A program made the position numbers and the translations under genes. From a virus: a DNA stretch of 29,104 nt. The notes beneath the pieces were generated by a model, which searched no databases, was not told the origin of the DNA, and saw only the letters and a program-made list of their open reading frames with translations. Location: IMG/VR virus record IMGVR_UViG_3300027671_000037, positions 1 through 29,104 of that record. The stretch is one strand, 5' to 3'. This document shows positions 4,064-27,009 of the stretch, piece after piece. The stretch's first letter is position 1. Every line of letters begins with the position of its first letter.

Positions 4064-4091
4064 TTAGACGCTGCGAAGGTGGGCGAAATTT
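4064..4091 (-). promoter_or_regulatory. Viral ECF-like promoter P1 (sigma 2)
   Basis: Minus strand: AAATTT (4086-4091), 16 bases, GTCTAA (4064-4069). The ATG of sigma 2 follows after 7 bases. The -35 is one of two that begin with A rather than G. Member of the nine-site family. Confidence 0.6.
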
Positions 4092-4101
4092 CAAAAAGAG
4101 A

Positions 4102-4419
4102 TTAAGCTACTGGACCCAAAATGAACCAAACTATAGTTGAGGTCTCGGTATTCGATTCGCTTTCAATCACAAAAGATGAACCATCGGCAATTGTGCCTAT
4201 GCTCAACTCACCCAGGGCACCGCGTTTAACGATCCGAGAGTAAAGTATATATGAATCACGATTAACAGCAGTAGTATTGACTGTGACGGTGCCGCCAACT
4301 AAAATTGCCTTCCCAATGACTGGCCCGTCATTATTGTTTAGTAATAATTTGCCGCCCAAATCGATGGCGGCCTTTTCAAGATCATTTATGTCTCTAAATG
4401 AAACAATCCTATTGGGCAT
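4102..4419 (-). CDS. Small beta-rich virion/tail-associated protein
   Basis: A 105-residue protein with many alternating hydrophobic strands. The segment with ILVGGTVTVNTTAVNRDS and, later, SIGTIADGSSFVI and STIVWFI resembles the C-terminal beta domain found in many phage tail and fibre-associated proteins, often of unknown role. It is the last gene of the operon starting at 5968, directly after the lipoprotein gene. A receptor-proximal or decoration role is plausible but not shown by any catalytic motif. Confidence 0.6.
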   Translation of the reverse strand: MPNRIVSFRDINDLEKAAIDLGGKLLLNNNDGPVIGKAILVGGTVTVNTTAVNRDSYILYSRIVKRGALGELSIGTIADGSSFVIESESNTETSTIVWFILGPVA

Positions 4420-4425
4420 TGAATC

Positions 4426-4677
4426 TCACAGCGACACGCCTACCATGCACGCCTGGATTTCATCGAGGCTGTTGTAATGCTCGATGCAGTCTTTCTGCCG
4501 GTCGATTTCTTGTCTTGACTCTCTAACTTGAGCAACACAGACGTTGACCTGGCTTATATCGGCTCCCATGAGTCTGACAACCTTGACGCACGCATCCCGG
4601 TCGGTAAATGGCCGGGCCTTACATCCAGCCAGGAAACAGACACAAAGCAACATCAACCAAAAAGCCTTACTTCGCAT
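4426..4677 (-). CDS. Small lipoprotein, possible outer-membrane spanin-like
   Basis: Begun at the ATG at 4677, the 83-residue product has a classic lipoprotein signal: basic MRSK, a hydrophobic core, then the lipobox LAGC with the lipidated Cys at 19. A longer frame opens at 4731, but its added 18 residues would destroy the signal-peptide layout, so I prefer 4677. The mature part is charged, with several cysteines (DAC, VCVAQ, DCIEHY, ACMV). The gene overlaps the holin-like gene by 11 bases, which fits a lysis cassette. Rz1-type spanins are usually proline-rich and this one is not, so spanin is a suggestion only. Confidence 0.6.
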   Translation of the reverse strand: MRSKAFWLMLLCVCFLAGCKARPFTDRDACVKVVRLMGADISQVNVCVAQVRESRQEIDRQKDCIEHYNSLDEIQACMVGVSL

Positions 4678-4915
4678 TCCCGTTTCCGTTTCGCCCGTTG
4701 ACCCAAGACACGAGTGCATGGCCTCCGGCAAAAATGCCGAAGACTGTACATAGCCCGGTTATAAGCGTTGGAAGGCTGGTGGCGAGCGCGCCCCATTTTG
4801 CGGTTAATAAAAAAGCCGTAAACATTAGAAGGCAGACGCCTGCCCCAAAGAGCAGCTTTTGTTCGCGCCACGAATCGCCGTTGCCGTTGCCGTTTGGAAG
4901 ATGTGGCGGATTCAC
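4667..4915 (-). CDS. Holin-like small membrane protein
   Basis: 82 residues with two hydrophobic segments, about 21-39 and 48-71, a short polar turn between them and an Asn/Gly-rich charged tail. Both size and topology match two-helix holins. It starts at GTG 4915, three bases after the stop of the upstream gene. A small lipoprotein gene overlaps its end. The endolysin is at 26357-26953, far away, but carries the same promoter motif. Holin function is inferred from topology and neighbours. Confidence 0.55.
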   Translation of the reverse strand: MNPPHLPNGNGNGDSWREQKLLFGAGVCLLMFTAFLLTAKWGALATSLPTLITGLCTVFGIFAGGHALVSWVNGRNGNGNAK

Positions 4916-4918
4916 CGA

Positions 4919-5416
4919 TTAACTCGCAAAATACGAAATGAATCCATCGGCTCGGACCAAGATATCGGTTCCGGCTGATACGACTATTCCGTTTGGAACC
5001 CAAAGCAACCGCTGGCCGAACCTCGCGGGGTTTCGGATCGTGGCGAAGGTCATGGAATTGCGCACGGTGGTGGACCCGGAGCTGACCCACTGAACCGTTA
5101 GGTCCAAAGCTATGCACCGCGACCAACCGGCAACCCCACCGTTACGGACAAATTCGTCGGGATTCCAGCACCAGCAATCCAAAAAATTGTTGGCTCCCCC
5201 GGTAATCGTTGCGCCTGGATTTGCCCATAGCGAAACGATGACAGCCGTCAAGCCCGTAACATTCAGGCCATCGCCCGCTTTGGTACTGCCAACCCCGGGA
5301 TCGCCTGGGTTGCCGAGTCCCTGCATTGGTTTTTGGATGGTCGCGCCCGAAGGAATCGCTGGAGGGATCGGGCTGCGAGTTAGAGCGGAACGCTCGAAAT
5401 AGATCTTATCTGCCAT
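4919..5416 (-). CDS. Putative virion structural protein
   Basis: 165 residues. The N-terminal third is rich in Pro, Gly and Ala (SPIPPAIPSGATIQ), and the rest is beta-like with many aromatic residues (CWCWNPDEF, GWSRCIALDLTVQW). A GGCGGT lies 9 bases before the ATG. The protein sits between the His-rich protein and the lysis genes in the operon driven from P2. Such proteins are often tail-fibre or head-decoration components; no family is recognised. Confidence 0.55.
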   Translation of the reverse strand: MADKIYFERSALTRSPIPPAIPSGATIQKPMQGLGNPGDPGVGSTKAGDGLNVTGLTAVIVSLWANPGATITGGANNFLDCWCWNPDEFVRNGGVAGWSRCIALDLTVQWVSSGSTTVRNSMTFATIRNPARFGQRLLWVPNGIVVSAGTDILVRADGFISYFAS

Positions 5417-5422
5417 TGTGAT

Positions 5423-5968
5423 TTACCGCCTATGCAACTTCAAAGCTCTGGCGAAATCGCGCGAGTGTTTGTCTTCAGCTGATCGTTCGCCGTGGCCGTC
5501 GTCTTCGATATCTTCGAGCTGCCGGTAATTGTGATCCGCATAGGCGTGTTCGTTGTCCTCAACTTCGCCGCGCTCCACCTCGCCACCGTGGGCGAATTTG
5601 TGTCCGCACCGTGGGCATTCGACTTCTCCCCCGTGCGCGTAATGGTCGGCTTTCTCGGGCTCGTAACGCTCATGGCCTACGCCGTGATCGTATTCGTTTT
5701 CGGATTGGCCCATTTCATTTTCGACACGTCCACCGTGGGCAAAATGCTTTTCGAGTTTCCCGCCCCGGCTAAGTCCGTACCGCTCGCCGTCTGTTGAATA
5801 ATGTTTCATTGATTGTATTTCTCCACCTCTGTAATGCTTTACGTGTTCCGGTAGCTTTTTGATGTTAGGGGTTGCGTGTGCAAATTCCTCGGCTGTCCCG
5901 GCCTTCAGCTCCCCTCGTTTTTCAAGGGTGAACAGCTTTCTCAATTGGGCGAGGCTTTTTGCGGGCAT
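5423..5968 (-). CDS. His-rich protein with repeated AHGG motifs and a zinc knuckle, unknown
   Basis: 181 residues, strongly charged. The motif (A/Y)HGG(E/R)V recurs: HFAHGGRVE, HYAHGGEVE and KFAHGGEVE, plus related RGGEI and RGGKL. Between two copies lies CPRCGHKF, a rubredoxin-like knuckle that could bind metal together with nearby histidines. The N-terminal region (about 1-50) is helical and more ordinary. First gene of the operon reading to 4102, preceded by viral promoter P2 and a GGGGAAG that may be only partly in the transcript. Function unknown; metal binding is inferred from residues. Confidence 0.6.
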   Translation of the reverse strand: MPAKSLAQLRKLFTLEKRGELKAGTAEEFAHATPNIKKLPEHVKHYRGGEIQSMKHYSTDGERYGLSRGGKLEKHFAHGGRVENEMGQSENEYDHGVGHERYEPEKADHYAHGGEVECPRCGHKFAHGGEVERGEVEDNEHAYADHNYRQLEDIEDDGHGERSAEDKHSRDFARALKLHRR

Positions 5969-5980
5969 AGTTCTTCCCCG

Positions 5981-6008
5981 TTAGACGGTAAGGCTGGCTT
6001 CAGGATTC
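5981..6008 (-). promoter_or_regulatory. Viral ECF-like promoter P2 (lysis/tail operon)
   Basis: Minus strand: GAATCC (6003-6008), 16 bases, GTCTAA (5981-5986). The ATG at 5968 follows after 12 bases. It lies in the short gap after the 845-residue virion protein gene. Confidence 0.7.
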
Positions 6009-6012
6009 GGGG

Positions 6013-8550
6013 CTAATCCTGCCGATTCGCCGCGTAGCTGATGGGCGTTTGCAATCGCTTGCTTAGTGTAATTTTACCGGCTCCGCCCTTGGTGGGTCTG
6101 ACCGCTTTAGGTGGCGGCATCGGTGCTAGTTGTCCCGCTTGCTGGTTGCTCAAAAGTCCCGCATGGGATCCGTCGAGATCTTGCCCCATCAACATTGAAA
6201 GGGTTTGGCGTTGCTGGTAAGGAATCGGCTCTGATCGGTCGGTGATTTTCTCTAAGACGGTTGAACGCAGTTTTTCGAGTAGTTTGGGGTAGACCGTTTG
6301 AAGCGTCTCGATCTCTTCTGGACTCACTGACCCGGCTTTCGCATGCGCCAGCACGGAAAGCGGATTTTCAACCGCGTTTTTGTAGCGAGCATATTTTGCG
6401 ATCTCCGCTGCGCTCGGCTCCCACTTGCTGGCTAACGGGCCTTGCTGCTGATGTTGGGGCACCTTCGATGCGAGAAAGCCCACTGCCGCACTGGTCGCCA
6501 GATGGAGCGCATCGCTCGTTTTTGGTGCGTGGGGATACATGTTCGCCGTGGCATCGCTCAACTTGTCGGCCAGGGCTTCGGGATTGTTTGCGAGCGATCG
6601 GATTTGGTCCGTATGCTCGATAAATTCCGACTTGGTTAATTGGGCTGCAACCCGACCAGCTCTTTGCTGTGCCGCTTGAATGGTTCCTTTAACCAAATCA
6701 GCCGCTCCGGAATTGATGGAGCGATCGACCGCATTCGAAAGGCGTTCTAGCTTTCCTAGAACTTCGGCCACTCGAACAGGATTCGCAAACTCGGATACGG
6801 CATGGAGCGGACCGATCAATGCGCCGACCGGTCCCAGAACGGCGTGGCCGATTGCACTCTCCCCAACGGCAGTGAATCCGCTTACGCCGCGCCCTCCCAT
6901 TTCTTGCATTGTCTCTAAAAGGGCGGCTTCCTTGCGGGCTTGCTGGATTCCCTCGGCGGTTTTGTCGATCAGGTTTTTGTGGGCAAGCGGAGAGTAATCC
7001 CCGGTCGGGACAAACTTGTGGGATTCCTCCAGCGCCGCGTTGTAGTTGTTTGAATCCTCGATAAACTTATCGAGAATGTTGGAGCGGATCTCGCCGGTCG
7101 CCGGATCGTTGATCTGCTTGAAGTAGCTAACCATCTTCTTCGGATCGAACTTGCCCCGAGTGGTGAACTCTTTGGTAATAGCTGCTTGGCTGTCTCGGAG
7201 CTGACTCTCGGCCTCGTTGACCGCTGCCTGGCGTGCGCCTGCTTTGCCCCAAACGTTCTGGTCTTCGAGCGTAGTCTTAAATTGATTCCAGAGGTTTCCG
7301 ACTTCTCTCGCGCTGTTCTGGCTGACTCTATCCGCCATCGGTGAGGCTTTTTGCCAATCCCACAAAGTTCTTTTGGCTTCTTCGATCCGCTTGAACTTGT
7401 CGAGCGTCGTCAACTCGTTCTCGGGGTTGAAATCCCGAAGCAAGCCGTCGCGCATCAGCTCCAGCTGGCGGGCGGTTCCTTTGTCCCACAGGTCCGGTTC
7501 GGTGCGGAACTTCTGCGCCATTTCCCCCATGTCGTTGATGAGTTTTTGGGCCGCGCCGTCTACTTTGCTCGGAGCCGCATCGGCTAGCATCGCTTCAAAC
7601 TCTTTTGGTTTAAGCGTCTGGTGCCAAGTGCTGATTGATTCTTCGTTGGCCTGGTGAACAGCGCGCAGCCGATCGGTCATGTCCTTTGCGAATTCGGGTT
7701 TAAGTAAATTCTCCGCGCCACCCGACTGGATGATCTCTCTAATTTCCTCGGGAGTTCTTCCGGTAATCTTGCTTGCCAGGTTGGGGTAAACCTCGACGAA
7801 AGCTTGTTTCCCTTTCTCGGCCAGCTCGCCCAATGCCTTCTTGGATGCCGTGATCGCCTTGGGGACGGCGATCTCCGCTGCGCCCAATGCTCCACCCAAC
7901 CCTCCGCCTAAAAGCGCTCCTAGGCCGATTTGTGACAGAGCCGATTCGGCGGTGAGCCCCGGATCGCCCAAAGCGCTTTCGTGGATGACATTGCCGGTGG
8001 AATAAATCGCCCCCTCAACCGCAGATCCGAGACCTAGTTCTGCGGCTCGTTGAGCAATTCTGCCGCCTAGTCCGGTTGCCGCTTCCCCAAGCATCGGCTG
8101 GACTGCTCCTCGAACCGCTTGACCAGCTTTGGCGATCAAACTCGGCGCGGTGAATTCGGCTGCGGTGCGAGCTGCCCCGAGCGCTCCGGCTTCAGCGGGC
8201 GCCGCTGCCCCTCCGGTCAATAGCAGTGGAGCGGCTATCCCGATTCCGGTCCCGATTGTATGGGCTACCGGATTGATTCGTTCGCGGGCTGCGATGTCTT
8301 CGGGATTGACGCCGAGAATTCTTTCGGCATGGGTGGACAGCCCAAAGGTTAAAGCGCTGCCAGCTGCTTCCGCTGCGGTCTTTAGCTGTTCAAGCGGGGA
8401 GCTAAACTTTTGCTGCAGCTCGTATTCTTTGATCTGCTCATCCGAAGCGGGGACGTAGCCCAGATTCCCGGCATATCTAACCTGATCAGGCGCTAGCTCT
8501 GTGATGTTGCCTTGCTGGTCGATGAAATGCTGCGGGGAATTTTCAGCCAT
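6013..8550 (-). CDS. Large internal virion (ejection/core) protein
   Basis: 845 residues. The N-terminal third has long Ala/Gly-rich amphipathic or membrane-active stretches (IGTGIGIAAPLLLTGGAA; ALLGGGLGGALGAAE), followed by long alpha-helical, charged regions. This is typical of podovirus internal core proteins that are ejected with the DNA. The ATG overlaps the stop of the upstream virion gene (TAATG), so translation is coupled. No transglycosylase or protease motif was spotted. Last gene of the operon driven from P3. Confidence 0.6.
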   Translation of the reverse strand: MAENSPQHFIDQQGNITELAPDQVRYAGNLGYVPASDEQIKEYELQQKFSSPLEQLKTAAEAAGSALTFGLSTHAERILGVNPEDIAARERINPVAHTIGTGIGIAAPLLLTGGAAAPAEAGALGAARTAAEFTAPSLIAKAGQAVRGAVQPMLGEAATGLGGRIAQRAAELGLGSAVEGAIYSTGNVIHESALGDPGLTAESALSQIGLGALLGGGLGGALGAAEIAVPKAITASKKALGELAEKGKQAFVEVYPNLASKITGRTPEEIREIIQSGGAENLLKPEFAKDMTDRLRAVHQANEESISTWHQTLKPKEFEAMLADAAPSKVDGAAQKLINDMGEMAQKFRTEPDLWDKGTARQLELMRDGLLRDFNPENELTTLDKFKRIEEAKRTLWDWQKASPMADRVSQNSAREVGNLWNQFKTTLEDQNVWGKAGARQAAVNEAESQLRDSQAAITKEFTTRGKFDPKKMVSYFKQINDPATGEIRSNILDKFIEDSNNYNAALEESHKFVPTGDYSPLAHKNLIDKTAEGIQQARKEAALLETMQEMGGRGVSGFTAVGESAIGHAVLGPVGALIGPLHAVSEFANPVRVAEVLGKLERLSNAVDRSINSGAADLVKGTIQAAQQRAGRVAAQLTKSEFIEHTDQIRSLANNPEALADKLSDATANMYPHAPKTSDALHLATSAAVGFLASKVPQHQQQGPLASKWEPSAAEIAKYARYKNAVENPLSVLAHAKAGSVSPEEIETLQTVYPKLLEKLRSTVLEKITDRSEPIPYQQRQTLSMLMGQDLDGSHAGLLSNQQAGQLAPMPPPKAVRPTKGGAGKITLSKRLQTPISYAANRQD

Positions 8551-10136: not shown

Positions 10137-10137
10137 T

Positions 10138-11538
10138 TTATTGGTACGCGCTGATCATCTTGTCGAGTGCGGCGATCTGCCGCTTGATTTCCCGCTGCTT
10201 GGCCAAAACCTGCCCGTAGCCTTTGCCCGGGACTGCTCCGCCCTTGGCTTTCTTGATCGCGGCAACGAACTGGCGCGCTCGATCTGGAGCGTCTTCCGCC
10301 TGAGCAACGGTTCGGGGCAGAACGATTTCCCCGGGGGAAAGCATCGCCGGGACGGTGTCGTTTTCCTCGGCATCACCCTTGCGCTTCGCTTTGCCGCCGA
10401 CCAGCACACCCCGGGCTGCGTTTTGCAGAAAGGAATAGTCAACCCATCGGTGACCGCGTTCGTCCTTTTTGACGTATTCGGGTGCAACCTTTTCCAAATC
10501 TTGGGCAATCACACCCATCCATTTTTGATGTTTCGGATCTTTTTTGTACTCAAATTTTGCGAATGGAACTCCGGGCGCCGCTTCTTCATCCAAGCGCTTG
10601 ATATTCTTCTTGTCTCGTTCATCCGATGCGAAAGCAGCCCCGACCGCGCCTGCGGCACTGGTAAGCCCCCCGATCAGTCTTCCGGGACTGATGTCGGTCT
10701 GCGCGTTGATCGATTGCTGATGTGAAAAGACGTTCCCGCGTTGCGCTTCGAGATTGAGCAAGGCTTGCCGATCTTGCTCGGAGAGCGAGCCGCCCATTCC
10801 CGCTATTCCCATCGATTCGCCGCCTACCCCCGAAAGGATCTGGCTTGCCAAGTTTTGTCCCTGGAGTCGGCGTTCCATTTGGCGCTGTTCTTCTTGGGCT
10901 CGAAGCTGCGCGGCTTGCGCGTTCGATTGGCCCACCATGCTGCCCTGAGCTTCAAGAATGCTGCGCATCGATGCACCAGGGCTCGCCCCGGCTCCCGATT
11001 GCCCGAGCGCCATTGCGCTTTTGAGTGATTGATCTAAGCCGGATTGAAATTGCGCTTGCGCGGCGCTGGGGCCTTGGTTCTCGGCTTGGTCCAGAATCTT
11101 CTGGGCTAACTCCCTTTGCTGATCTTGGGTTTGATACAGCCCGCCCAAACCTTTGTTGAGGATGTCAACGCCGCTGCCGCCGCGACCCGCCACTCCGAAG
11201 TTAGTTACAAACGGACTATCAGGGATGATGCCGGGGTACTGTTGCAATGCAACCGTTCCCTTAATGTCGTATGGACCACGGCCCCCGTATTGACCGCCCG
11301 TATGCGGGATTGCACTCGGACTCGCCGCGTAGGGGGAATTGGAGTAGCCCGGAGTTTGTCCGGGTTGTAACCAGGGTTGTGGCTGACCATTGGGACCCAT
11401 GCCCGTGTTGGCCGCATTGTCCTGTCGATCCCAGCGCGGGGTTTGACGCCTCAGCCAGTCTCGGGCCGCGTCCCAGCCACCGCCAGCTGGAAAGGGGTCT
11501 GTGTTCGGATCATTTGGATCTTGATCGTAATTCGGCAT
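10138..11538 (-). CDS. Virion protein with embedded peptidase S74 intramolecular chaperone
   Basis: 466 residues from the ATG at 11538. That ATG has AGAGGA at a good distance, and the TTG one codon earlier is less likely. The first 300 residues are low-complexity and helical, rich in Gln, Gly and Ala. An S74 (endosialidase-type) chaperone domain starts at ASDERDKKNI (Ser 305), continues through FAKFEYK and MGVIAQDLEKVAPEYV, and ends near residue 370. S74 domains normally trimerise a fibre and then cut themselves off. Here about 95 residues follow, with TVPAMLSPGEIVLP and AKKAKGG-like motifs. First gene of the P3 operon. A host-binding or internal virion role is possible. Confidence 0.75.
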   Translation of the reverse strand: MPNYDQDPNDPNTDPFPAGGGWDAARDWLRRQTPRWDRQDNAANTGMGPNGQPQPWLQPGQTPGYSNSPYAASPSAIPHTGGQYGGRGPYDIKGTVALQQYPGIIPDSPFVTNFGVAGRGGSGVDILNKGLGGLYQTQDQQRELAQKILDQAENQGPSAAQAQFQSGLDQSLKSAMALGQSGAGASPGASMRSILEAQGSMVGQSNAQAAQLRAQEEQRQMERRLQGQNLASQILSGVGGESMGIAGMGGSLSEQDRQALLNLEAQRGNVFSHQQSINAQTDISPGRLIGGLTSAAGAVGAAFASDERDKKNIKRLDEEAAPGVPFAKFEYKKDPKHQKWMGVIAQDLEKVAPEYVKKDERGHRWVDYSFLQNAARGVLVGGKAKRKGDAEENDTVPAMLSPGEIVLPRTVAQAEDAPDRARQFVAAIKKAKGGAVPGKGYGQVLAKQREIKRQIAALDKMISAYQ

Positions 11539-11555
11539 CAATATTCCTCTGGGAA

Positions 11556-11583
11556 TTAGACGAGTCAGCCGCCGATAACATTC
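11556..11583 (-). promoter_or_regulatory. Viral ECF-like promoter P3 (internal virion operon)
   Basis: Minus strand: GAATGT (11578-11583), 16 bases, GTCTAA (11556-11561). The ATG at 11538 follows after 17 bases, with AGAGGA in between, so this transcript can have a short leader with a ribosome binding site. Confidence 0.7.
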
Positions 11584-11586
11584 CGG

Positions 11587-14664: not shown

Positions 14665-14667
14665 GGT

Positions 14668-16245: not shown

Positions 16246-16247
16246 TC

Positions 16248-16808
16248 TTAGTTGGTGCCTTCCTCGACTTGAACTTCGTAGGAGAGGGTCTGGCCTGTCG
16301 CCAAAACAGCGGATTGGGTCACGCAGAGAAAGTCAGATGCCCCGTTGAGGATCGGCGCTTGATCCATTCTGGTGGTGAAATCCCAAACGATTGTATCTTT
16401 TGCCGTGCTCGCTGCGGTTGCAGCTGAAACCAGTGCAGCGGCGCGGATCGGTCCACCAACCGCAGTCCCGGCAGTAGGCGCGGCAGTGAAGTCCGTTAGA
16501 ACTGTTGACGCAGCCGCGACACCCGCACGGTTATCGAATTTCGCTAAAACTCGGGTATTGCCAGTTCCACCGCTTGCCGCAGTCGATCGCCGCTGGAGGG
16601 TATAGGTTTGGCCTCCAGCAACGGTTCCAGACTGAAGGGTTAACATTATTCTTTTAATGCGAGTAACTACGCCAGCCGCACCAGTAAGCTGGATAATATC
16701 GGTCGGCGCAGCACCCGGAGCAAGTGACGCGCTGGCGAAGCCATACGCAACGTCGTAGTTCGGGAGCTGAACCGCGTTGCCGTTTAAATCTTTAATTCCA
16801 AGGGACAT
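16248..16808 (-). CDS. Putative beta-sandwich virion structural protein
   Basis: 186 residues, rich in Ala, Thr and Gly with alternating beta pattern (IIQLTGAAGVVTRIKRIML; TYTLQRRSTAASGG; DTIVWDFTT). It looks like a decoration or head-fibre protein. First gene of the operon that runs through the head-tail adaptor and tail nozzle, and preceded by viral promoter P4 with a GAGGT ribosome binding site. No family recognised. Confidence 0.6.
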   Translation of the reverse strand: MSLGIKDLNGNAVQLPNYDVAYGFASASLAPGAAPTDIIQLTGAAGVVTRIKRIMLTLQSGTVAGGQTYTLQRRSTAASGGTGNTRVLAKFDNRAGVAAASTVLTDFTAAPTAGTAVGGPIRAAALVSAATAASTAKDTIVWDFTTRMDQAPILNGASDFLCVTQSAVLATGQTLSYEVQVEEGTN

Positions 16809-16831
16809 TTATTCAATTACCTCACTACGTT

Positions 16832-16859
16832 TTGGACGCCAATTCAGTGTCCAAGATTC
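16832..16859 (-). promoter_or_regulatory. Viral ECF-like promoter P4 (structural/tail operon)
   Basis: Minus strand: GAATCT (16854-16859), 16 bases, GTCCAA (16832-16837). The ATG at 16808 follows after 23 bases, with GAGGT between, giving a normal short leader. Confidence 0.65.
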
Positions 16860-16864
16860 TTTTG

Positions 16865-17784: not shown

Positions 17785-17786
17785 GG

Positions 17787-18221
17787 TTAAATGCTCGTGC
17801 TATCCATTAAGGTCAGGTTGATAACTACTTGCTCACCGCTCGCGGGATCGGTTGCGGTACCGCTTGAGTTCGCGAATTGAACCTGGATGCTGGGGGTGGC
17901 GGATACGTTTAGATTCGCGTTTGGAGTCGGCCAAAATTGGAAAGGCGCAGCGGAAGCGCTCGCGTTCTGAAAGCTAATCGCCGCGCCAAGGAATTTGTTG
18001 TAGGGATCTTGCAGCGTAATTGTATACAAACCGGTTGAGACCCTCACGATGCTTTTAATGCCTTTGGTCCCGGTGGATCCCGCAGTGGAATAGCTTCGCT
18101 TGATGGGATCCCAGGTCTGCAAAGTCGGAGCGCCAGAAGCTCCGAAACTCACCGTAGCGAAGAGATTCACCATTCTTCGCTCTAGCGAGTAGTTGAATTC
18201 GATAAAGGTACGATTAGCCAT
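17787..18221 (-). CDS. Capsid-associated structural protein
   Basis: 144 residues: EFNYSLERRMVNLFATVSFG, then TKGIKSIVRVSTGLYTITL and DPYNKFLGAAISF. This pattern is seen in small proteins encoded next to the major capsid gene in podovirus-like phages, with unknown or decorating roles. AAGGAT lies about 8 bases before the ATG. It directly follows the capsid gene in transcription. Confidence 0.6.
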   Translation of the reverse strand: MANRTFIEFNYSLERRMVNLFATVSFGASGAPTLQTWDPIKRSYSTAGSTGTKGIKSIVRVSTGLYTITLQDPYNKFLGAAISFQNASASAAPFQFWPTPNANLNVSATPSIQVQFANSSGTATDPASGEQVVINLTLMDSTSI

Positions 18222-18239
18222 TACTTGAGATCCTTCGGA

Positions 18240-19466: not shown

Positions 19467-19560
19467 GGGACTCCTGAAAACAGAAAAATTGCGTGCCCTG
19501 CGCTAGTTGGAGCGAGGGGAAGCTTGGTTGTTGGTGGTGCGGGAGCTGTTTTCTGGGCTG

Positions 19561-20637
19561 TTACGCTTTGGTAGTCTGGAGAGCCGCGATTGCTTCTCGC
19601 AGCCTTTGATCATCCGAGCGCTTGCCGTTTGAGACGGCGGGCCTACTTGAAACAGTCATTTGATTACTGAGCGTCTTTGCACCGCTTGCGCTAACAACTG
19701 GCTTGCGTTCCTGTTTAGGTTCAGGTGAACCTTCGCTGCGGGACTTCCACTTTTGGGTGGCGGTCCCTTTCTCCACAAATTCCCGCATGAGATAATCATC
19801 GGTCATCTGCGCAGCTTCCTCGTAAGACATGATCTTCTTCGTCTTCTGGAAGTTGAGTTCTATGACCTGGCCGACCAAATTCGCTGCATCGAATAGATTT
19901 ACGTATTCGTAGGTCTGGGCGTTGGTGGTAACGAAATCCTTCACATCGCCATAGAACTGGTTGAGTGTTTGCTTTTCTTCATTTATTAGACGGGATTTCT
20001 GCGCTTTGATTCGGGTGTCGCGTTCGGCTGCGGTTTCCGCCTTGAATTCGTCCAGCTCTTCCTTGAGCGCCTTGATTTGAGTTTCAGGGGCAGGCTTGCC
20101 ATCATTCAGGACAGCGCTGGTCAAATCCTCATACTCAAGACCGAGTCCTTCCCTCACTGCTCTTAACGGATCCTGCTTGGCGGTTTGCCGTAGCTGATTG
20201 AATTGGCGCACCTCGGCCAATCCGTTTTCTAGCTCTTGGCGCATTGCGCGCAGCTCGTTGCGCTCGCGGGCTAGTTTCTTTTCCTCTTTGGCCAGTGCGG
20301 CGAACCGCTTGGCGTCGTTCGATCTCGGCTGCGGTTTAACTTCGGGTTCAGGGGCTGCGCCTTCGGGCTTTGCCTCTGTGCCGAGTTGCGGTTCAGTTCC
20401 GGGGACCTGGGGTTGCGGTTCGGGCGCTAGGTTGTGCTTTGCGACGGAGACATTGCCGGAGGGACTTTGGTTCACCGGCTTATCAACCCAATTTACCTGG
20501 GGCGCGTCTTCAGGGTGAACGTCGGGACCTTGGGGACCTGGATCGGTTCCTTTGGGCGTTACTGCGCCCTTGCCTGGACTGAATTGGGCCGTTTGAACGG
20601 TCTGGACGATTTGGGTTTCTGCTGGGGTCATTGACAC
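19561..20637 (-). CDS. Capsid scaffolding protein
   Basis: 358 residues. A Pro/Gly-rich disordered start (about 20-105) leads to long heptad-patterned, charged helices (about 108-150 and 185-225), as expected of scaffolds. The C-terminal region is basic, with a helix rich in K and R, where scaffolds touch the capsid protein. The GTG at 20637 has AAGGAA 7-8 bases upstream; an ATG two codons later is the alternative. Located between portal and major capsid genes. Confidence 0.75.
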   Translation of the reverse strand: MSMTPAETQIVQTVQTAQFSPGKGAVTPKGTDPGPQGPDVHPEDAPQVNWVDKPVNQSPSGNVSVAKHNLAPEPQPQVPGTEPQLGTEAKPEGAAPEPEVKPQPRSNDAKRFAALAKEEKKLARERNELRAMRQELENGLAEVRQFNQLRQTAKQDPLRAVREGLGLEYEDLTSAVLNDGKPAPETQIKALKEELDEFKAETAAERDTRIKAQKSRLINEEKQTLNQFYGDVKDFVTTNAQTYEYVNLFDAANLVGQVIELNFQKTKKIMSYEEAAQMTDDYLMREFVEKGTATQKWKSRSEGSPEPKQERKPVVSASGAKTLSNQMTVSSRPAVSNGKRSDDQRLREAIAALQTTKA

Positions 20638-20648
20638 GAGTTACTTCC

Positions 20649-22571
20649 TTAAGCTGTTGCTTTGACGGAATTGGGGACTAAATCTGATGGTCGGGGAGGC
20701 ACTGCCGGGGATGGAGGTTGATTCAATTGCCCGGAAGCAGCTGCTTGTGCGGCTGCGGCTGCTGCGGCTTGTTGTTTTGCTTCTTCTTCGAACACATCCA
20801 GCTGGGACATGAATCGTCGCAGCAATTCCAGCTTGTCTTCCTCTAGCCCATGGAGCTTGCCCAAAGCGTATTCCTGTAATGCAAGCTCGCGAGCCAAGGT
20901 GAGATCGTCAAAAGGCTCCGGAGCGGTGTATTTGCCGTCTTCGACAATTTCTTCCAAAATCGAATGGATGTACTCTTCCCGCGAGTCCGACAAATCTTGC
21001 TCGGTCTGAAGGTCGGGGAACGCGAGTAAGCGCTTAGCGGTGCGAGGGGAAATGTATCCCGCTTGCGCCAGCTCGGTAACGGTTTGGATTCGGCCTTCCG
21101 GACTGTTCGGCAGCGAGGAGACCGGGAAGACATCGGTTACGTAATCGGTCGCGGGGAGCTGGATATCTTTCCAATCCAGCTCATCGGCATAGCGGTTTTC
21201 TGTTGCAGAGACTTTGTATTCGCCGGTCTCTTCGAAAATGTCCTCGACCACTCCCAAGGACAATTTGGAGCAATCTAGGAATAATTGCTCGTAAGCGTGG
21301 CCCTGGACGGTGAACCGATCGGATTCGATCGAGTTGAGTTCGCGCAGCGCTCGACCGGAATCGACTCCTTGCGGCTTGAGGCTGGCCGCAGAGAGCTGAG
21401 AGATCCCGAACAGTTCATAAGCCTTCTGCACCAGCTCCCTAAGGTGCTCGTAAATCTCCGGGGGAACGATGTTGGGTGGGATGATGTATTCGGGCTTTTC
21501 AAGGCTGTTGATGATCGAGCCGATGTCATTGTTGATTTGACCGGGGACGATCTTTGAACCGGTTCTGACCCAGATTTTGAACGAACCGGCTAGGTGAAAA
21601 CTGCGTTGGATGGTCGAAAGAATTTTGTTGATTTCGAGCTGGATGGACTGGAGCTGTTGCCCGCCCGACTGCCCATAGAAACCGAACAGCGATGGAATCC
21701 ACTGGAGGTGAGCGAATGGAAAATAGTCGTGTTTCCATTCCTCCATTTCGGTAAGGTTCGCCCCATCGATCGTGATGATGTGCTTGCCGTCGCCTGCATC
21801 TTTGGAAGTGGGAAGACGCCAGCTTTCTCGAACGATCACCGCATCGGTAACGGTCGGAAAAACCGCGCTATCGATGGTGCGGGTATTGTTGGCCGCTAAA
21901 ATTTCGGTTTTGCGTTCTGGATGATTCTCTAGGAGGATTTCTCGATCGACCGCCTTGGCCCGGTGGAGCTGGAGCGGCTGACCGTACAGAGCTTCGATCT
22001 GGTCGATCCAAAGCTCGTGGAGCAGGACTCTTTCCCATGCAACTCGCCCGTTCTTGTTGAAAACGTAGATAAACCCATCACCGAAGACGCAGCTGTCGCG
22101 GAAGATCTGCGGGCCGAGCTGGTAGGCTTTAACGTCGTTGAAAAGACCAGCCGTAAAACGGTTGAGCTTTTGGGCTTTGCGCCGCTTCCGATAATCGCCG
22201 CCCGATGTCAGGTAGAGGGGAGCCGGGCGATTCTTCGCCATTTTGGCGGTTACGGTATCGACGCAGGACTGAACGATGTTTAGGGTTAGCCGATCGCTGA
22301 TGAAGCTCCGCATGACCGAAGAAAGCGGACTGAACGACCAGCCAAACGGGAATCCACCGAACGCCTGATTGCCATACAACTTGGCATCCATCGCCAAGCG
22401 CTGAAGCCGGGTGTTTTGGTTGGTCTGGAGGAAATTGATTGTTTGAGTTATCGAATCGGCTGCCTTGGCTGCTTCGAGTTCCCACCATTTGGCGATATGC
22501 GTTTCCGGATCTCGCGCTGGAGGTTTTTCACCCTTTTTGTGAAAGGATCTGAAATCGACTGTGTTGCTCAA
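20649..22571 (-). CDS. Portal protein (head-tail connector)
   Basis: 640 residues. KWWELEAAKAADSITQTI, then RFTAGLFNDVKAY, FRDSCVFGDGFIYV and VLLHELWIDQIEA are typical of podovirus portals. The C-terminal part has helical, Gln/Ala-rich repeats. The start is a TTG immediately after the TAA of the upstream gene (TAATTG), which suggests reinitiation. It lies between terminase and scaffold, as expected for the DNA-packaging connector. Confidence 0.85.
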   Translation of the reverse strand: MSNTVDFRSFHKKGEKPPARDPETHIAKWWELEAAKAADSITQTINFLQTNQNTRLQRLAMDAKLYGNQAFGGFPFGWSFSPLSSVMRSFISDRLTLNIVQSCVDTVTAKMAKNRPAPLYLTSGGDYRKRRKAQKLNRFTAGLFNDVKAYQLGPQIFRDSCVFGDGFIYVFNKNGRVAWERVLLHELWIDQIEALYGQPLQLHRAKAVDREILLENHPERKTEILAANNTRTIDSAVFPTVTDAVIVRESWRLPTSKDAGDGKHIITIDGANLTEMEEWKHDYFPFAHLQWIPSLFGFYGQSGGQQLQSIQLEINKILSTIQRSFHLAGSFKIWVRTGSKIVPGQINNDIGSIINSLEKPEYIIPPNIVPPEIYEHLRELVQKAYELFGISQLSAASLKPQGVDSGRALRELNSIESDRFTVQGHAYEQLFLDCSKLSLGVVEDIFEETGEYKVSATENRYADELDWKDIQLPATDYVTDVFPVSSLPNSPEGRIQTVTELAQAGYISPRTAKRLLAFPDLQTEQDLSDSREEYIHSILEEIVEDGKYTAPEPFDDLTLARELALQEYALGKLHGLEEDKLELLRRFMSQLDVFEEEAKQQAAAAAAAQAAASGQLNQPPSPAVPPRPSDLVPNSVKATA

Positions 22572-22874
22572 TTACGGTTTCTCTGCGGGGATTGACTGCG
22601 GTGCTACGCCTTGGGGTGCCTCGCTCGGCTCGGCTTCAGGCTCCGGCTTTCCTTGGAAATAAGGCGTGCTCCAAAACAACATATTTTCGTCATCGTCGCG
22701 CACGGGGTTTGAAAGGAAGGTGTTCGATGGCTCTGGGAGCCGCAGCGGAGCCGCGAAAGCTTCGTCGGCTAACTCAAGCTCCAGCTCGGCGGTCTTCAGC
22801 TTTTTGACGCCATACTGCTTCATCAGCTGCAGCGTGTTCTCTAGGTTAGTTTTGTTGGTCGTCTTCTTTGGCAT
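22572..22874 (-). CDS. Small hypothetical protein
   Basis: 100 residues. The N-terminal part is helical (LENTLQLMKQYGVKKLKTAEL); the C terminus is Pro/Glu-rich (PEPEAEPSEAPQGV). It overlaps the upstream small gene by 29 bases and adjoins the portal start. Co-transcribed with portal and capsid genes, but its role is unknown. Confidence 0.5.
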   Translation of the reverse strand: MPKKTTNKTNLENTLQLMKQYGVKKLKTAELELELADEAFAAPLRLPEPSNTFLSNPVRDDDENMLFWSTPYFQGKPEPEAEPSEAPQGVAPQSIPAEKP

Positions 22875-23091
22875 TCTTGTTTCCGAAAATCCGTTCCCAG
22901 CCGCGCTGGTAAGCCTCGGAGTTACCGAGTGGCCCGTCTGCGGTGGCTTTGCAGAACTGGCGCATCAACTTGTCTTTCAGCCGTTGCTGGGTTGGCGTAA
23001 GCGGCAAGTCTTTGGCTGAAACACTCTTCCCCGGTTCGTTGGGGATTCGCCGGTAAGCGTTTTGGTTGAAGTCCTGGGGTTTCTGCGGCAC
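22846..23091 (-). CDS. Small hypothetical protein, first gene of the portal/capsid operon
   Basis: 81 residues starting at a GTG. No SD is present, but viral promoter P5 ends 5 bases ahead, so the mRNA would be leaderless. The sequence is basic and partly helical (QRLKDKLMRQFCKATADG). It may be a packaging or head cofactor, but no family is recognised. Its position just behind terminase is suggestive only. Confidence 0.55.
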   Translation of the reverse strand: MPQKPQDFNQNAYRRIPNEPGKSVSAKDLPLTPTQQRLKDKLMRQFCKATADGPLGNSEAYQRGWERIFGNKNAKEDDQQN

Positions 23092-23096
23092 GCCAA

Positions 23097-23124
23097 TTAG
23101 ACGGCAGAAACCGCTCTACAATTC
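23097..23124 (-). promoter_or_regulatory. Viral ECF-like promoter P5 (portal/capsid operon)
   Basis: Minus strand: GAATTG (23119-23124), 16 bases, GTCTAA (23097-23102). The GTG at 23091 follows after 5 bases without any SD. Confidence 0.7.
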
Positions 23125-23137
23125 GGAGACCTAAGCC

Positions 23138-24661
23138 TCAGAACTCCGACCGGTGAAAATCGAAGAAATCACTTATCGCGTCGTTCTCTTCGCGGTGCTT
23201 CTCATCCAGGACCCGCTCTTCCGCTGCCCAATGGTCCGCAATTTCTTGTTCGTAATTGCGTTTGTAGAACTCGGGGGTACCGGGTTGCGGTTTGTGTTCG
23301 AGCGTTTCTGAGAGATATGAATAGGTGTAACGCCAGGCGTACAAGGTCGCGTCGGTACAGTGGTTGGGGCAGCTGGGGTGCTCTTCGCGCTTGGTGCTCT
23401 TTGGGTCCCAGATTAGTTCCTGGTATTCGGTGATCAGTGGTTGGCACGTCGCCGGGTTGAGTAGAACCTTCCCGGTCGCAAACTCGCTGTTCATTATCTC
23501 GATGAAATCGGACTTGCCCCGCTTGTCTGCTGGAGTGAGGGCGATTCCATGGCGGTTCTCTATTTCAGCGGTGGCTTGCTTATTGGCGTTATCGATGATC
23601 ACTCGTTCGATCGCCGGGAACTTCGCCAAATAAAGCTTGATTCGATCCGCGACCGCCGTGACATCCATCTTTGCCTGTTTGGAGGATTCGAGTATTCGAA
23701 GGACCGGGTCGTAATCGTGCCAAGTGCAAACAGTGAAAGCCGATGGATCGGTGTGACCGAGATCGACGCCTAGGGAATAGTGCCAAGCACCTTTCCGGTA
23801 TTCGGGAAGCGTGCCGCTCCAATCGTTGAGCCCTGGTTCATAGCGGTAGACCAGCTTGCTGGTATCGGTGGTCCATAGACCAAGGTAGTTCTTTCTAAAC
23901 CACGGCGTTTCCCGGACCCGGGGATTTTGCGATTCGAGATCGGTGATCTCTTTCGCCCAATTTTCTCGAACGTATGGATTTTGAAATGCGCTCCAGCGGT
24001 GACCGCTCCAACCTGCAACGGACCACGTTCCGGGGTTGCTCGGATCTTGGTCCTTGGTGAGATCGTAAAAAATCCCCTTCTTCAAATCGGTGGGGACTCC
24101 AGAAAGAACGATCGTGCCGCGAACGTCAGCGCAAGCGGGCTTTAGGACAGAGAAGACCAGCTCGGTGAGATCGATGGTGAACGACCCGCATTCATCGATG
24201 ATTGCCAGTGCCAGCGATTGACCGAGAATTTTCGACTTTTGATCTTCGTCCGAATCAACCCCCATCAAATAAATCACCGACCCGTTGCGGAGGCTGATCG
24301 AAAGTTCGGTTTCATTGAACCTTGCTCCGATCTTGAATTGGCGATCGATCCTTTTGAGAATCGGACGCCACATGATCTTTTTTGCGCTTTCCCGAGTCAG
24401 TGCGACGTAGAGCGAGGTTGAACCAGGAATCTCTAAAGCGGTTTTGAATAAATACAGGCCATCGCCGAAGGACTTCCCAGAGCGGCGAGTGCAGAAAACC
24501 GCCTTGAGCTTTGCGGCATCGAGAATGAACGCGGTCTGCTCAGCAAAGACCGGGATCTCTGGTCCAAGTGCTACCGCCCCACTTGGAGAGTTTGCACCTT
24601 GGCGATCCTGAAGCTGTTGGAGCTGCCGTTCGAGATTATCTAAGAGCTTCGATACTGCCAC
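23138..24661 (-). CDS. terL: Large terminase subunit
   Basis: 507 residues, the expected length. The ATPase has a Walker A CTRRSGKS (57-64) and a Walker B ALAIIDE (150-156, with D155 and E156). The nuclease domain shows SLGVDLGHTDPSAF (D299), ERVIIDNANK (D356) and HCTDATLYAW (D436) as candidate metal-binding acidic residues. It packages DNA into the procapsid through the portal. It starts at a GTG with no SD; promoter P6 ends 6 bases ahead, predicting a leaderless mRNA. The tRNA-Tyr gene lies directly upstream, so the -35 of P6 touches the end of the tRNA. Confidence 0.93.
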   Translation of the reverse strand: MAVSKLLDNLERQLQQLQDRQGANSPSGAVALGPEIPVFAEQTAFILDAAKLKAVFCTRRSGKSFGDGLYLFKTALEIPGSTSLYVALTRESAKKIMWRPILKRIDRQFKIGARFNETELSISLRNGSVIYLMGVDSDEDQKSKILGQSLALAIIDECGSFTIDLTELVFSVLKPACADVRGTIVLSGVPTDLKKGIFYDLTKDQDPSNPGTWSVAGWSGHRWSAFQNPYVRENWAKEITDLESQNPRVRETPWFRKNYLGLWTTDTSKLVYRYEPGLNDWSGTLPEYRKGAWHYSLGVDLGHTDPSAFTVCTWHDYDPVLRILESSKQAKMDVTAVADRIKLYLAKFPAIERVIIDNANKQATAEIENRHGIALTPADKRGKSDFIEIMNSEFATGKVLLNPATCQPLITEYQELIWDPKSTKREEHPSCPNHCTDATLYAWRYTYSYLSETLEHKPQPGTPEFYKRNYEQEIADHWAAEERVLDEKHREENDAISDFFDFHRSEF

Positions 24662-24667
24662 GGTGGT

Positions 24668-24695
24668 TTAGACATCCCCACCAGGCTCAGTATTT
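24668..24695 (-). promoter_or_regulatory. Viral ECF-like promoter P6 (terminase)
   Basis: Minus strand: AAATAC (24690-24695), 16 bases, GTCTAA (24668-24673). The GTG at 24661 follows after 6 bases. The -35 abuts the discriminator base of the tRNA-Tyr (24696). This is the weakest -35 with P1. Confidence 0.55.
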
Positions 24696-24779
24696 TGGAT
24701 GAGGCAGGGATCGAACCTGCTGTGCCCCGAAGGACGCTTGTTTTACAGACAAGGGAACCGCCATAGGTTCATCTCATCC
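24696..24779 (-). tRNA. tRNA-Tyr (GUA)
   Basis: A complete class II cloverleaf: 7-bp acceptor (GGATGAG with CTCATCC), D arm GAAC/GTTC with GG in the loop, anticodon stem CTTGT/ACAAG with loop CTGTAAA (anticodon GTA at 24744-24746), a long variable arm (GTCC, TTCG, GGGC) and T arm GCAGG/CCTGC with TTCGATC. The long variable arm agrees with bacterial tRNA-Tyr. The discriminator is A and CCA is not encoded. It lies between the small membrane peptide gene and terminase, within the operon. Confidence 0.92.
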
Positions 24780-24842
24780 TTATTTCGTCGTGAGTATAGA
24801 AAGGGCTAACGCAAGACCAACGAAAATGATCGAAGTAATCAA
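24780..24842 (-). CDS. 20-residue hydrophobic membrane micropeptide
   Basis: A TTG at 24842 overlaps the stop of the upstream gene (TTGA) and opens a 20-residue frame ending in a TAA at 24780-24782, directly next to the tRNA. The product begins LITSIIFVGLALALSILTTK (first residue Met if TTG initiates), one transmembrane helix with a Thr-Lys tail. An AGAGGT lies 9 bases before the TTG. Tight packing and an SD support it, but the size is too small for certainty. Function unknown; membrane location inferred. Confidence 0.4.
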   Translation of the reverse strand: MITSIIFVGLALALSILTTK

Positions 24843-25129
24843 TTTAGCTTTACCTCTTTATCTAGAATGCTTTGGTTGGGGAGAAGCTTGATTTGGGATG
24901 GGGCTTGCGTTTGGGTGGTGAGATCTTCCAAAGCCTTTTCGATCTTAGCGATCCGAAGCTCGGTGTTGCTGTCGCGTAAAATGGCTGCCAAGGTTGCGCA
25001 GCCGTTGATGATCACTTTCGCCCGATCGAGCTGTCCGATGTCACCGGATAATTCGAGCTTCCGCAAGGTATGGGAGAGCAGCAGGCAGATCTGCTGAGGG
25101 GTTTTGAGTACGCGACCTTTGATAGCCAT
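24839..25129 (-). CDS. Small helical protein, unknown (possible terminase-associated)
   Basis: 96 residues. It starts MAIKGRVLKTPQQICLLLSH and continues with helical segments (DRAKVIINGCATLAAILRD; ELRIAKIEKALEDL). An AAGGAG lies about 9 bases before the ATG. It is encoded ahead of terminase, where a small terminase subunit could sit, but no clear DNA-binding motif is visible. Treated as unknown. Confidence 0.55.
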   Translation of the reverse strand: MAIKGRVLKTPQQICLLLSHTLRKLELSGDIGQLDRAKVIINGCATLAAILRDSNTELRIAKIEKALEDLTTQTQAPSQIKLLPNQSILDKEVKLN

Positions 25130-25133
25130 CGGA

Positions 25134-25433
25134 TTATTTCTCCTTGTCGATCGGAGTCGGTTCGTCGGTTGTGTAAACGATGTTGTCGAGCGGGACGGTC
25201 ACCGCATGGAGTTGGTGATCGCGGTCATCAATCCAGCTCACCCTTAACCCTTGGGGGCAAAAAGTAAGCTTTGCACCGTATTTCTCGGCATCGATGCTCG
25301 TGACCACTTCCCGACGCAGCAGCACCCCAATGTTGAATTGGGCTTTGGTGATTTTCGCTTGCGCTGGCGCGGGTTGGGGAGCGGCGCTCTTGGGGGATTT
25401 CTTAGAAGAAGGCATTGAAGTTCTCATAGGCAT
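25134..25433 (-). CDS. Small hypothetical protein
   Basis: 99 residues. A Lys/Pro/Ala-rich start (KKSPKSAAPQPAPAQAK) leads to a beta-like domain (AKLTFCPQGLRVSWIDD; AVTVPLDNIVYT). Two in-frame ATGs (25433 and 25415) are possible; the longer is shown. It overlaps the gene before it by up to 32 bases and is likely co-transcribed with it. Function unknown. Confidence 0.5.
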   Translation of the reverse strand: MPMRTSMPSSKKSPKSAAPQPAPAQAKITKAQFNIGVLLRREVVTSIDAEKYGAKLTFCPQGLRVSWIDDRDHQLHAVTVPLDNIVYTTDEPTPIDKEK

Positions 25434-25581
25434 CGGTGCAAGCCGCCAAGAACTCTTCCTTGGATCGGGCTTGATCGATAAAAAATAGAATTGCTCCAGC
25501 GGATAAAAGTTGATGGGCGGTCAGGTCGCCAGCCAGCTTGCGGGCTTTCTTTCGAGTTTGGTTAGTGGGTTTCTTAGACAT
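25402..25581 (-). CDS. Small hypothetical protein
   Basis: 59 residues from the ATG at 25581, chosen because GGAGAT lies 5 bases ahead; a longer frame from 25599 has no such signal. A basic start (KKPTNQTRKKARKL) is followed by a helix (LTAHQLLSAGAILFFIDQAR). Function unknown. Confidence 0.5.
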   Translation of the reverse strand: MSKKPTNQTRKKARKLAGDLTAHQLLSAGAILFFIDQARSKEEFLAACTDAYENFNAFF

Positions 25582-25611
25582 GTTTATCTCCTCATCCATA
25601 AGATTAAGTTC

Positions 25612-26073
25612 CTAAATCATGTATGGATCATATGCTGCTGGCCCTAGCGGCTTTTTCAGGAAGCCGGTGGCATAGGTCTGGTGCGTGTAAACCACGAAGC
25701 GATTGCCATCGATCAGTTTGGTGGCGATCCCGAGCTGGCGGTAAGGCTTTTTGACATAAACGTAATGGAGAACCTTTCCTTCGATGCACAGCCAGCCAAG
25801 GATCGCACTCGGTTCATCCTGCAAGCAGGCAATGGTAAGCTTTCCGCCGCGTTGCAAGATTCTTTCGATTATCTGGTGATGGTGCGGAAAATAGAGTTTT
25901 GGGGGTATCCCCTTGGCGAAATCCGAGGATTGGTAGCTTCTAAGCCAACTATTGAAAACGAAGCTGATATCGTTTTCTTCGGCTGGCCGAAGTGTGACTG
26001 AGTGCAGACCGAGTTCTCTTGGAGCTTCGGAAGGTGCGGGGGTAGTGGTTAGAGCTTCTACTGTTTCACTCAT
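25612..26073 (-). CDS. GNAT-family N-acetyltransferase
   Basis: 153 residues. LRPAEENDISFVFNSWLRSY (28-47), then ILGWLCIEGKVLHYVYVKK (91-109) and the acetyl-CoA-binding RQLGIATKL (112-120) fit the GNAT fold. GNAT proteins with this SWLRSY start are often encoded near the terminase in podovirus-like phages; their substrates are unknown. The ATG overlaps the stop of the upstream gene (ATGA). A host or virion protein modification role is inferred. Confidence 0.75.
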   Translation of the reverse strand: MSETVEALTTTPAPSEAPRELGLHSVTLRPAEENDISFVFNSWLRSYQSSDFAKGIPPKLYFPHHHQIIERILQRGGKLTIACLQDEPSAILGWLCIEGKVLHYVYVKKPYRQLGIATKLIDGNRFVVYTHQTYATGFLKKPLGPAAYDPYMI

Positions 26074-26321
26074 GATCGTTGTCGTACTCGCTTGATTTGC
26101 CCCATTGGAGACTGGAGAACCTCGGCTTCGGCCTTCTTCACATACTCGGCCAAATAATTCTGGAGAGCTGAATGGGTCAGCTGGAGGAAGCCAGCCGCCG
26201 ACCTCTCATTGATACTCTGCAAATGATTAAATTGGGTCGCCAGAATGACCATCGCGGTTTCAAATGCAAAGACCACCGCTTGGGCTTCAGGGGTTGCGCT
26301 GGTCACTTTCGCCGAGTTCAT
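26070..26321 (-). CDS. Small hypothetical protein, first gene of the GNAT operon
   Basis: 83 residues from the ATG at 26321 (a TTG one codon earlier is less likely). Probably helical throughout (AVVFAFETAMVILATQFN; LQLTHSALQNYLAEYVKKAE). No SD is visible; promoter P7 ends 8 bases ahead, so a near-leaderless mRNA is predicted. Function unknown. Confidence 0.5.
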   Translation of the reverse strand: MNSAKVTSATPEAQAVVFAFETAMVILATQFNHLQSINERSAAGFLQLTHSALQNYLAEYVKKAEAEVLQSPMGQIKRVRQRS

Positions 26322-26329
26322 CAACTAAA

Positions 26330-26357
26330 TTAGACGGTCAGCGCATAATGCGGATTC
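26330..26357 (-). promoter_or_regulatory. Viral ECF-like promoter P7 (GNAT operon)
   Basis: Minus strand: GAATCC (26352-26357), 16 bases, GTCTAA (26330-26335). The ATG at 26321 follows after 8 bases. The -35 touches the stop codon of the endolysin gene. Confidence 0.7.
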
Positions 26358-26953
26358 TAGGTGCGCGAGGTGCGCAAGGCTCTCTCGAAAGAATCGGCAT
26401 ATTGCGCAATACGATCAGCTCGATCTAACCCATTAATCACTTTGCGGGCGTTGTAGTAATCGGGCGGGTGGCTTTGAGTGTAATCACCGAGCTTATGGCC
26501 AGTGAACCAACCTTCCCGCATACCCCTGGCCGCGATTGCGTAGCTAATTGCGGGATTCAGGACCAACTCGGGGTTTTGGACCAGTGTTTCAGGACCGATG
26601 TCGAAACCGCCGATTGTCTCTCCGTCCAGCATTTGGCTGGCGTGGCGGTAGCCCTTCTCCCAAGTGAGCTGTACATAGCCCCTGCCATAAAAGCCGCTGG
26701 GCCAATACCGATTTTGCAGCTCGTATAAATGGGTGTACGTGGGATCGGCTCGGCGCTCTTTCACCGGCTGAAAGGTGTTTGCGGTCTCCCAGCGGATAGT
26801 TGCCAGGAAATAAGAGACATCAGGGATCTGCTTGAAGCCGGGATCGCCTTGGACGGCACCTAAAAGGAAGTTGAGACCATCGGAGACTTCTAGTGTGAGG
26901 GGGAAGGATAATAGAGCACGTAAGAATTTCGATACATCGATTTGTAATGACAT
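26357..26953 (-). CDS. Endolysin, GH19/chitinase-like lysozyme fold
   Basis: 198 residues. YFLATIRWETANTFQPVKE (48-66) carries the likely catalytic Glu 56, and GFYGRGYVQLTW (87-98) is the GH19-family signature. ARGMREGWFTGHKLGDY and YNARKVINGLDRAD complete the match to phage endolysins of this fold. It would cleave peptidoglycan at lysis. No signal peptide is visible, so a holin is expected; a candidate is at 4667-4915. No SD; promoter P8 ends 6 bases before the ATG, so the mRNA would be leaderless. Confidence 0.8.
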   Translation of the reverse strand: MSLQIDVSKFLRALLSFPLTLEVSDGLNFLLGAVQGDPGFKQIPDVSYFLATIRWETANTFQPVKERRADPTYTHLYELQNRYWPSGFYGRGYVQLTWEKGYRHASQMLDGETIGGFDIGPETLVQNPELVLNPAISYAIAARGMREGWFTGHKLGDYTQSHPPDYYNARKVINGLDRADRIAQYADSFERALRTSRT

Positions 26954-26959
26954 GCCGGA

Positions 26960-26987
26960 TTAGACTGGAATTCTCTCCGGCGAATTC
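26960..26987 (-). promoter_or_regulatory. Viral ECF-like promoter P8 (endolysin)
   Basis: Minus strand: GAATTC (26982-26987), 16 bases, GTCTAA (26960-26965). The ATG at 26953 follows after 6 bases. The -35 is a palindrome shared with promoter P9 on the other strand. Confidence 0.72.
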
Positions 26988-27009
26988 GCGGAGGTTCAAA
27001 GCAGTCCAA
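26982..27009 (+). promoter_or_regulatory. Viral ECF-like promoter P9 (methyltransferase), divergent from P8
   Basis: Plus strand: GAATTC (26982-26987), 16 bases (26988-27003), GTCCAA (27004-27009). The ATG at 27019 follows after 9 bases and no good SD is present. It uses the same six -35 bases as P8 in the opposite direction. Confidence 0.65.

Follow-up and report, generated by a model that had tools for sequence, protein, structure and literature searches.

Nine bipartite sites in the genome of an uncultured virus of bacteria are probably promoters that together form one phage regulon and are read by an ECF sigma factor of the virus itself, with a relay from a first sigma factor (sigma 1) to a second (sigma 2) and with leaderless starts. 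The principle is already known, Salmonella phage 7-11 being the closest known case. The new points are the predicted leaderless starts, a -35 element shared by two divergent predicted promoters, and the existence of relatives which lack the sigma genes and in which the motif is rare. The first-pass annotation had read the sites as a dedicated viral late regulon; the leaderless starts, the shared -35, a feedback-type site before sigma 2 and a sigma-70-type promoter of sigma 1 go beyond it.

Nine sites with a strict 16-base spacer

The window analysed is the entire 29,104-base virus record IMGVR_UViG_3300027671_000037. The sites (-35, spacer length, -10) and one further candidate are listed below.

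4064-4091, minus strand: site 1, AAATTT-16-GTCTAA, before sigma 2, ATG 7 nt past the -10
5981-6008, minus strand: site 2, GAATCC-16-GTCTAA, before gene 5423-5968, ATG at 12 nt
11556-11583, minus strand: site 3, GAATGT-16-GTCTAA, before gene 10138-11538 (Peptidase_S74), ATG at 17 nt, Shine-Dalgarno in leader
16832-16859, minus strand: site 4, GAATCT-16-GTCCAA, before gene 16248-16808, ATG at 23 nt, Shine-Dalgarno in leader
23097-23124, minus strand: site 5, GAATTG-16-GTCTAA, before gene 22846-23091 and the portal-capsid genes, GTG at 5 nt
24668-24695, minus strand: site 6, AAATAC-16-GTCTAA, before the terminase large subunit, GTG at 6 nt
26330-26357, minus strand: site 7, GAATCC-16-GTCTAA, before gene 26070-26321, ATG at 8 nt (an alternative TTG start is possible at 26324)
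26960-26987, minus strand: site 8, GAATTC-16-GTCTAA, before the endolysin (lysozyme) 26357-26953, ATG at 6 nt
26982-27009, plus strand: site 9, GAATTC-16-GTCCAA, before the DNA methyltransferase 27019-28098, ATG at 9 nt
19986-20012, minus strand: candidate tenth site, GAATCA-15-CGTCTAA, spacer 15, within a scaffold-like ORF

A scan of both strands with GAAT-N18-GTCTAA, allowing at most one mismatch, returned nine matches in the window, at the same coordinates and on the same strands as the promoter family described in the first-pass annotation. One hundred dinucleotide shuffles gave a mean of 1.23 matches and a maximum of 4 (Poisson P ~6e-6 for nine). As this pattern was picked after the sites had been seen, an open enumeration of all gapped word pairs (3-6 letters, gaps 10-25) was added. 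The top-scoring pair was again GAAT-18-GTCTAA, which has five exact copies where 0.044 would be expected. The constant 16-base spacing claimed earlier was borne out, the counts with at most one mismatch being 1, 0, 0, 2, 9, 1, 0, 0 and 0 for spacers of 12 to 20 bases; the lone match at spacer 17 is the site at 4064 shifted by one base in register. None of the spacer-16 matches lies in coding sequence, and neither shuffled nor coding sequence carries the motif at a comparable frequency.

The consensus of the sites is GAATNN-16-GTCYAA. AAT, GTC and AA are invariant; the base before AAT is G in seven sites and A in two, and the -10 is GTCTAA in seven and GTCCAA in two, in agreement with the counts given earlier. 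The spacer letters vary freely, and the nine sites are therefore not copies of a repeat. All nine occurrences of the hexamer GTCTAA in the window are on the minus strand; seven belong to the sites, and one of the other two to the candidate at 19986.

The sites are placed at gene junctions

Each of the nine sites has at least 27 of its 28 bases in intergenic DNA, a class that makes up about 5% of the possible positions, and a start codon follows 5 to 23 bases downstream. Terminase, capsid-region, tail-region, lysozyme and sigma 2 genes are preceded in this way. Within the array running from sigma 2 up to the methyltransferase, ten gaps are at least 34 bases long, and eight of them contain one site or two. 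A site is missing from the gap above tRNA-Tyr and from the 94-nt one in front of the major capsid gene. No standard site was found in the latter gap; the candidate at 19986-20012, which lies about 520 nt upstream of that gene, could act as a tenth promoter and serve it.

The sites had been described as standing before operons and not inside them. All nine are intergenic, but the second part goes too far, as several of them divide one continuous same-strand late-gene array, and read-through from upstream units could occur.

At 26982-26987, a single GAATTC forms the -35 of both site 8 (minus strand, endolysin) and site 9 (plus strand, methyltransferase). The word reads GAAT on either strand, and the two predicted promoters point apart. 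Judged from this overlap, only one holoenzyme at a time should occupy the shared element.

Site 6 directly adjoins the 3′ end of a tRNA gene (24696):

24696-24779, minus strand: tRNA-Tyr, its end abutting the terminase promoter exactly

Two small genes on the minus strand at 4426-4915, distant from the endolysin at 26357, encode a holin-like protein with several stretches of membrane type and a spanin-like protein that carries a lipoprotein signal.

Two ECF sigma factors are encoded

1-693, minus strand: sigma 1, ECF sigma factor, ATG at 693; the ORF extends to 726 with a TTG start
3469-4056, minus strand: sigma 2, ECF sigma factor by Pfam and TIGR02937

By their family scores, both genes belong to the ECF superfamily. 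The two ECF-like sigma factors noted earlier reach 72.6 bits (sigma 1) and 53.6 bits (sigma 2) with the NCBI model TIGR02937 (sigma70-ECF), the cut-off of which is 42.9 bits. In Pfam, sigma 1 matches Sigma70_r2 (2.4e-13) and r4_2 (5.9e-7), and its region 4 is clear; sigma 2 matches Sigma70_r2 (5.7e-13) and, weakly and under the Pfam cut-off, r4_2 (0.0015). The two proteins are 30% identical over 155 residues (E 1e-23). The best solved relatives of sigma 1 are Pseudomonas sigma-H (4e-15) and E. coli sigma-E (1e-13), and its whole sigma domain can be aligned with sigma-E and AlgU, both of solved structure. Single-sequence structure prediction of the two sigmas was of low confidence (pLDDT 51 and 54).

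ECF (group 4) sigma genes are usually autoregulated from their own promoter class, and a linked anti-sigma gene is common, though not universal. Sigma 2 has this usual layout, with site 1 directly before it; sigma 1 has no such site. A family scan of the neighbouring proteins recognised no anti-sigma gene beside either sigma. At 1-147, a protein-like frame on the opposite strand (YSFDAYLKYLIGR..AGKEFLKWM) lies across the C-terminal tail of sigma 1 and is cut by the contig end. The contig edge may affect the sigma 1 stop.

Comparison with known systems

ECF-type promoters are bipartite, with -35 and -10 elements, a strict spacer and a GTC-containing -10. The nine sites fit this layout, with a strict 16-bp spacer and a (C)GTCTAA -10. 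The N. meningitidis sigma-E -10 is CGTCTAAH (PMC2893595). The ECF-like form proposed earlier is thus upheld by the GAAT -35, the strict spacing and a -10 that is the same as that of N. meningitidis sigma-E. The likeness to bacterial sigma-E/AlgU lies in this -10 and in the full-domain alignment of sigma 1; the -35 differs, being GGAACTT for sigma-E in E. coli, GTAAGGTT in N. meningitidis and GAAT in the window.

In line with the reading proposed for the window, phage 7-11 has an ECF-like sigma with region 4 (gp47) that works with the host core RNA polymerase, bipartite late promoters before late genes (eight, with a 16-bp spacer) and sigma-70 early promoters (PMC8948821). Its consensus is GTAAtg-16-aCTA, whereas that of the window is GAAT-16-GTCTAA (PMC8948821). 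Phage 7-11 has one sigma, whose gene lacks a late promoter, whereas the window encodes two and has a site before one of them; the three 7-11 late genes inspected have ordinary leaders, in contrast to the leaderless starts predicted here. The 7-11 sigma is 24-26% identical to the sigmas of the window, and the 7-11 genome is 90 kb. In phiEco32, an ECF-type phage sigma (gp36) likewise directs middle and late genes, with gp79 as co-regulator, but its promoter is the single element tAATGTAtA, as gp36 has no region-4 homology (PMC8948821). Sigma 1 of the window does have region 4, and the window promoters have a -35. The window consensus matches neither GTAAtg-16-aCTA nor tAATGTAtA, and the Pfam scores for SU10 capsid (21.6 bits, cut-off 24.1) and portal (19.2 bits, cut-off 30) do not place the virus in the phiEco32/7-11 group. 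In cascades of the type of Bacillus phage SPO1, which has a large genome, successive phage sigmas drive successive gene classes. The SPO1 sigmas are not known to be ECF factors and read other promoter sequences, and the cascade of the window is a putative one.

Relatives lack the sigma genes, and the motif is rare in them

Alignment of the capsid protein identified more than 80 phage contigs, 44-52% identical in this protein; most are fragments, and 49 related contigs (1.23 Mb in total) formed the control set. Sigma70_r2 had no match in these 49 contigs. The same model recognises the phage 7-11 sigma at 26.4 bits, so this negative result is meaningful. The broader phage sigma family gave a single weak match, with an internal stop codon, in 23 large contigs. 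The exact motif occurs twice in the 1.23 Mb of the relatives and five times in the 29 kb of the window, being about 100-fold rarer in the former, and with one mismatch it is at chance level (1.45 per 29.1 kb). No comparable gapped motif of the relatives was ECF-promoter-like, and the high scorers resembled repeats.

The best syntenic relative (G003) shares the gene order of the window from terminase to the tail region. At the junctions of sites 5, 4, 3 and 2, its gaps are -4, 20, 2 and 2 bases, against 46, 56, 48 and 44 in the window; the comparison is least exact at site 5, because G003 carries an additional small gene at that junction. Since the G003 junctions are nearly closed and the relatives are without sigma and motif, the promoters seem to have been added at the junctions, or lost from the relatives along with the sigma genes. 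The absence of both sites and sigma factors from the relatives suggests that the whole gene-control circuit joined the virus at once. Searches of IMG/VR with the terminase, sigma 1, sigma 2 and an alignment of sigma 1 and sigma 2 found no relatives, and no second sigma-bearing relative turned up in which a joint change of sigma and motif could be followed. The portal and capsid proteins had no match among 50,697 phage records. G003 also carries long arrays of short repeats (L010:1-3400; CACG-20-CACGCT, more than 80 copies) with open frames on both strands.

What reads the sites

The candidate readers of the sites are the two phage sigmas and host ECF sigmas. If a host ECF sigma, for example one of envelope stress, read them, late timing would be set by host stress and the phage sigmas would serve otherwise. 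The (C)GTCTAA -10 is common to bacterial sigma-E promoters, and sigma 1 is close enough to sigma-E/AlgU that host and phage promoters could overlap. We nevertheless consider this unlikely, as a site stands directly before sigma 2 and the relatives lack both sigma genes and motif, which argues for a pair owned by the phage. The recurrence of the sites at the junctions of one gene array would also be expected of repressor or activator binding sites or RNA processing sites. This reading is very improbable given the asymmetric bipartite form, the strict 16 bp, the ECF-type -10 and the unconserved spacer; moreover, the start codons follow at so short and fixed a distance that a separate promoter could not fit in between. 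Chance resemblance, picked by eye from short words in a free search, is refuted by the shuffles, in which nine was never reached, by the first rank in the open enumeration and by the intergenic placement with no spacer-16 match in coding sequence. A dedicated viral regulon, as first proposed, is supported at the level of sequence by the ECF-type layout, the two ECF proteins, and the relatives without sigma and without the motif above chance.

Predicted leaderless starts

Genes with leaderless mRNAs have the start codon at or near +1 and no Shine-Dalgarno sequence. From site 1 to site 9, the -10 and the start codon are 7, 12, 17, 23, 5, 6, 8, 6 and 9 bases apart. In phages 7-11 and phiEco32, the distance between promoter element and transcription start is 6-9 bases (PMC8948821). 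The gap of 5-9 bases in six of the nine units leaves no room for a Shine-Dalgarno sequence, and the mRNAs of these units should be leaderless. Shine-Dalgarno-like matches precede 26 of 29 other genes and one of the six short-gap genes (Fisher P 0.0009); the single match is upstream of the -10 of its gene, and none of the six units has a Shine-Dalgarno downstream of the -10. Where the gap is longer, the predicted leader contains a clear Shine-Dalgarno at 17 and 23 bases, and the 12-base unit is ambiguous.

Predicted early promoters and the proposed cascade

709-717, minus strand: TGATATAAT, extended -10 of housekeeping-sigma type, before sigma 1; read from sequence
1051-1079, plus strand: TTGACC-17-TATCAT, sigma-70-type promoter with TG before the -10, before early-looking plus-strand genes

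Upstream of sigma 1, TGATATAAT is a perfect extended -10 and is followed by an AAGGA Shine-Dalgarno. TTGACC-17-TATCAT has 10 of 12 matches in addition to the extended -10, and the plus-strand genes run from 1215. Sigma-70-like sites in this region were not more frequent than in shuffles, so we only infer the order host sigma, sigma 1, sigma 2 together with the late genes.

In the proposed regulon, host core RNA polymerase with a phage-encoded ECF sigma would read all nine promoters. The housekeeping-sigma promoter would give early synthesis of sigma 1, the putative early activator, which would then open site 1, in front of sigma 2, along with the late units. Sigma 2, in turn, would sustain the late phase through positive feedback on its own site. 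In six of the nine units, the transcript would start at the start codon or within about 4 bases of it, giving leaderless mRNAs; the remaining units would have a longer leader, two with a clear Shine-Dalgarno. Promoter activity, timing, the succession of the sigmas and leaderless translation are all deduced from the sequence.

The plus-strand gene 1215-2288 had no match when compared with plasmids. Between sigma 1 and this gene, at 884-1131, TTAGGTGACGG-like units are repeated in both orientations and resemble plasmid iterons; they are a possible replication origin.

Implications

We tentatively propose, as a scenario that falls somewhat short of an even chance, that the phage lineage acquired a pair of related ECF sigma genes and reorganised its whole late programme around them. 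Promoters would have been inserted at junctions that are closed in the relatives, with the -10 near enough to the start codon to make most late mRNAs leaderless, and sigma 1 would act early in a two-step relay in which sigma 2 amplifies itself. A single phage that has two ECF sigmas and a regulon of nine sites, set against dozens of relatives with neither, is a natural comparison in which the building of new regulons by viruses can be addressed junction by junction. Were the late transcripts leaderless, the choice of promoter would also set the mode of translation, a link that to our knowledge is hardly studied in phage biology. The compact promoter set and the two sigmas could also provide a ready orthogonal expression module. 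The window also encodes a tRNA-Thr:

28309-28383, minus strand: tRNA-Thr, with the unusual anticodon AGT
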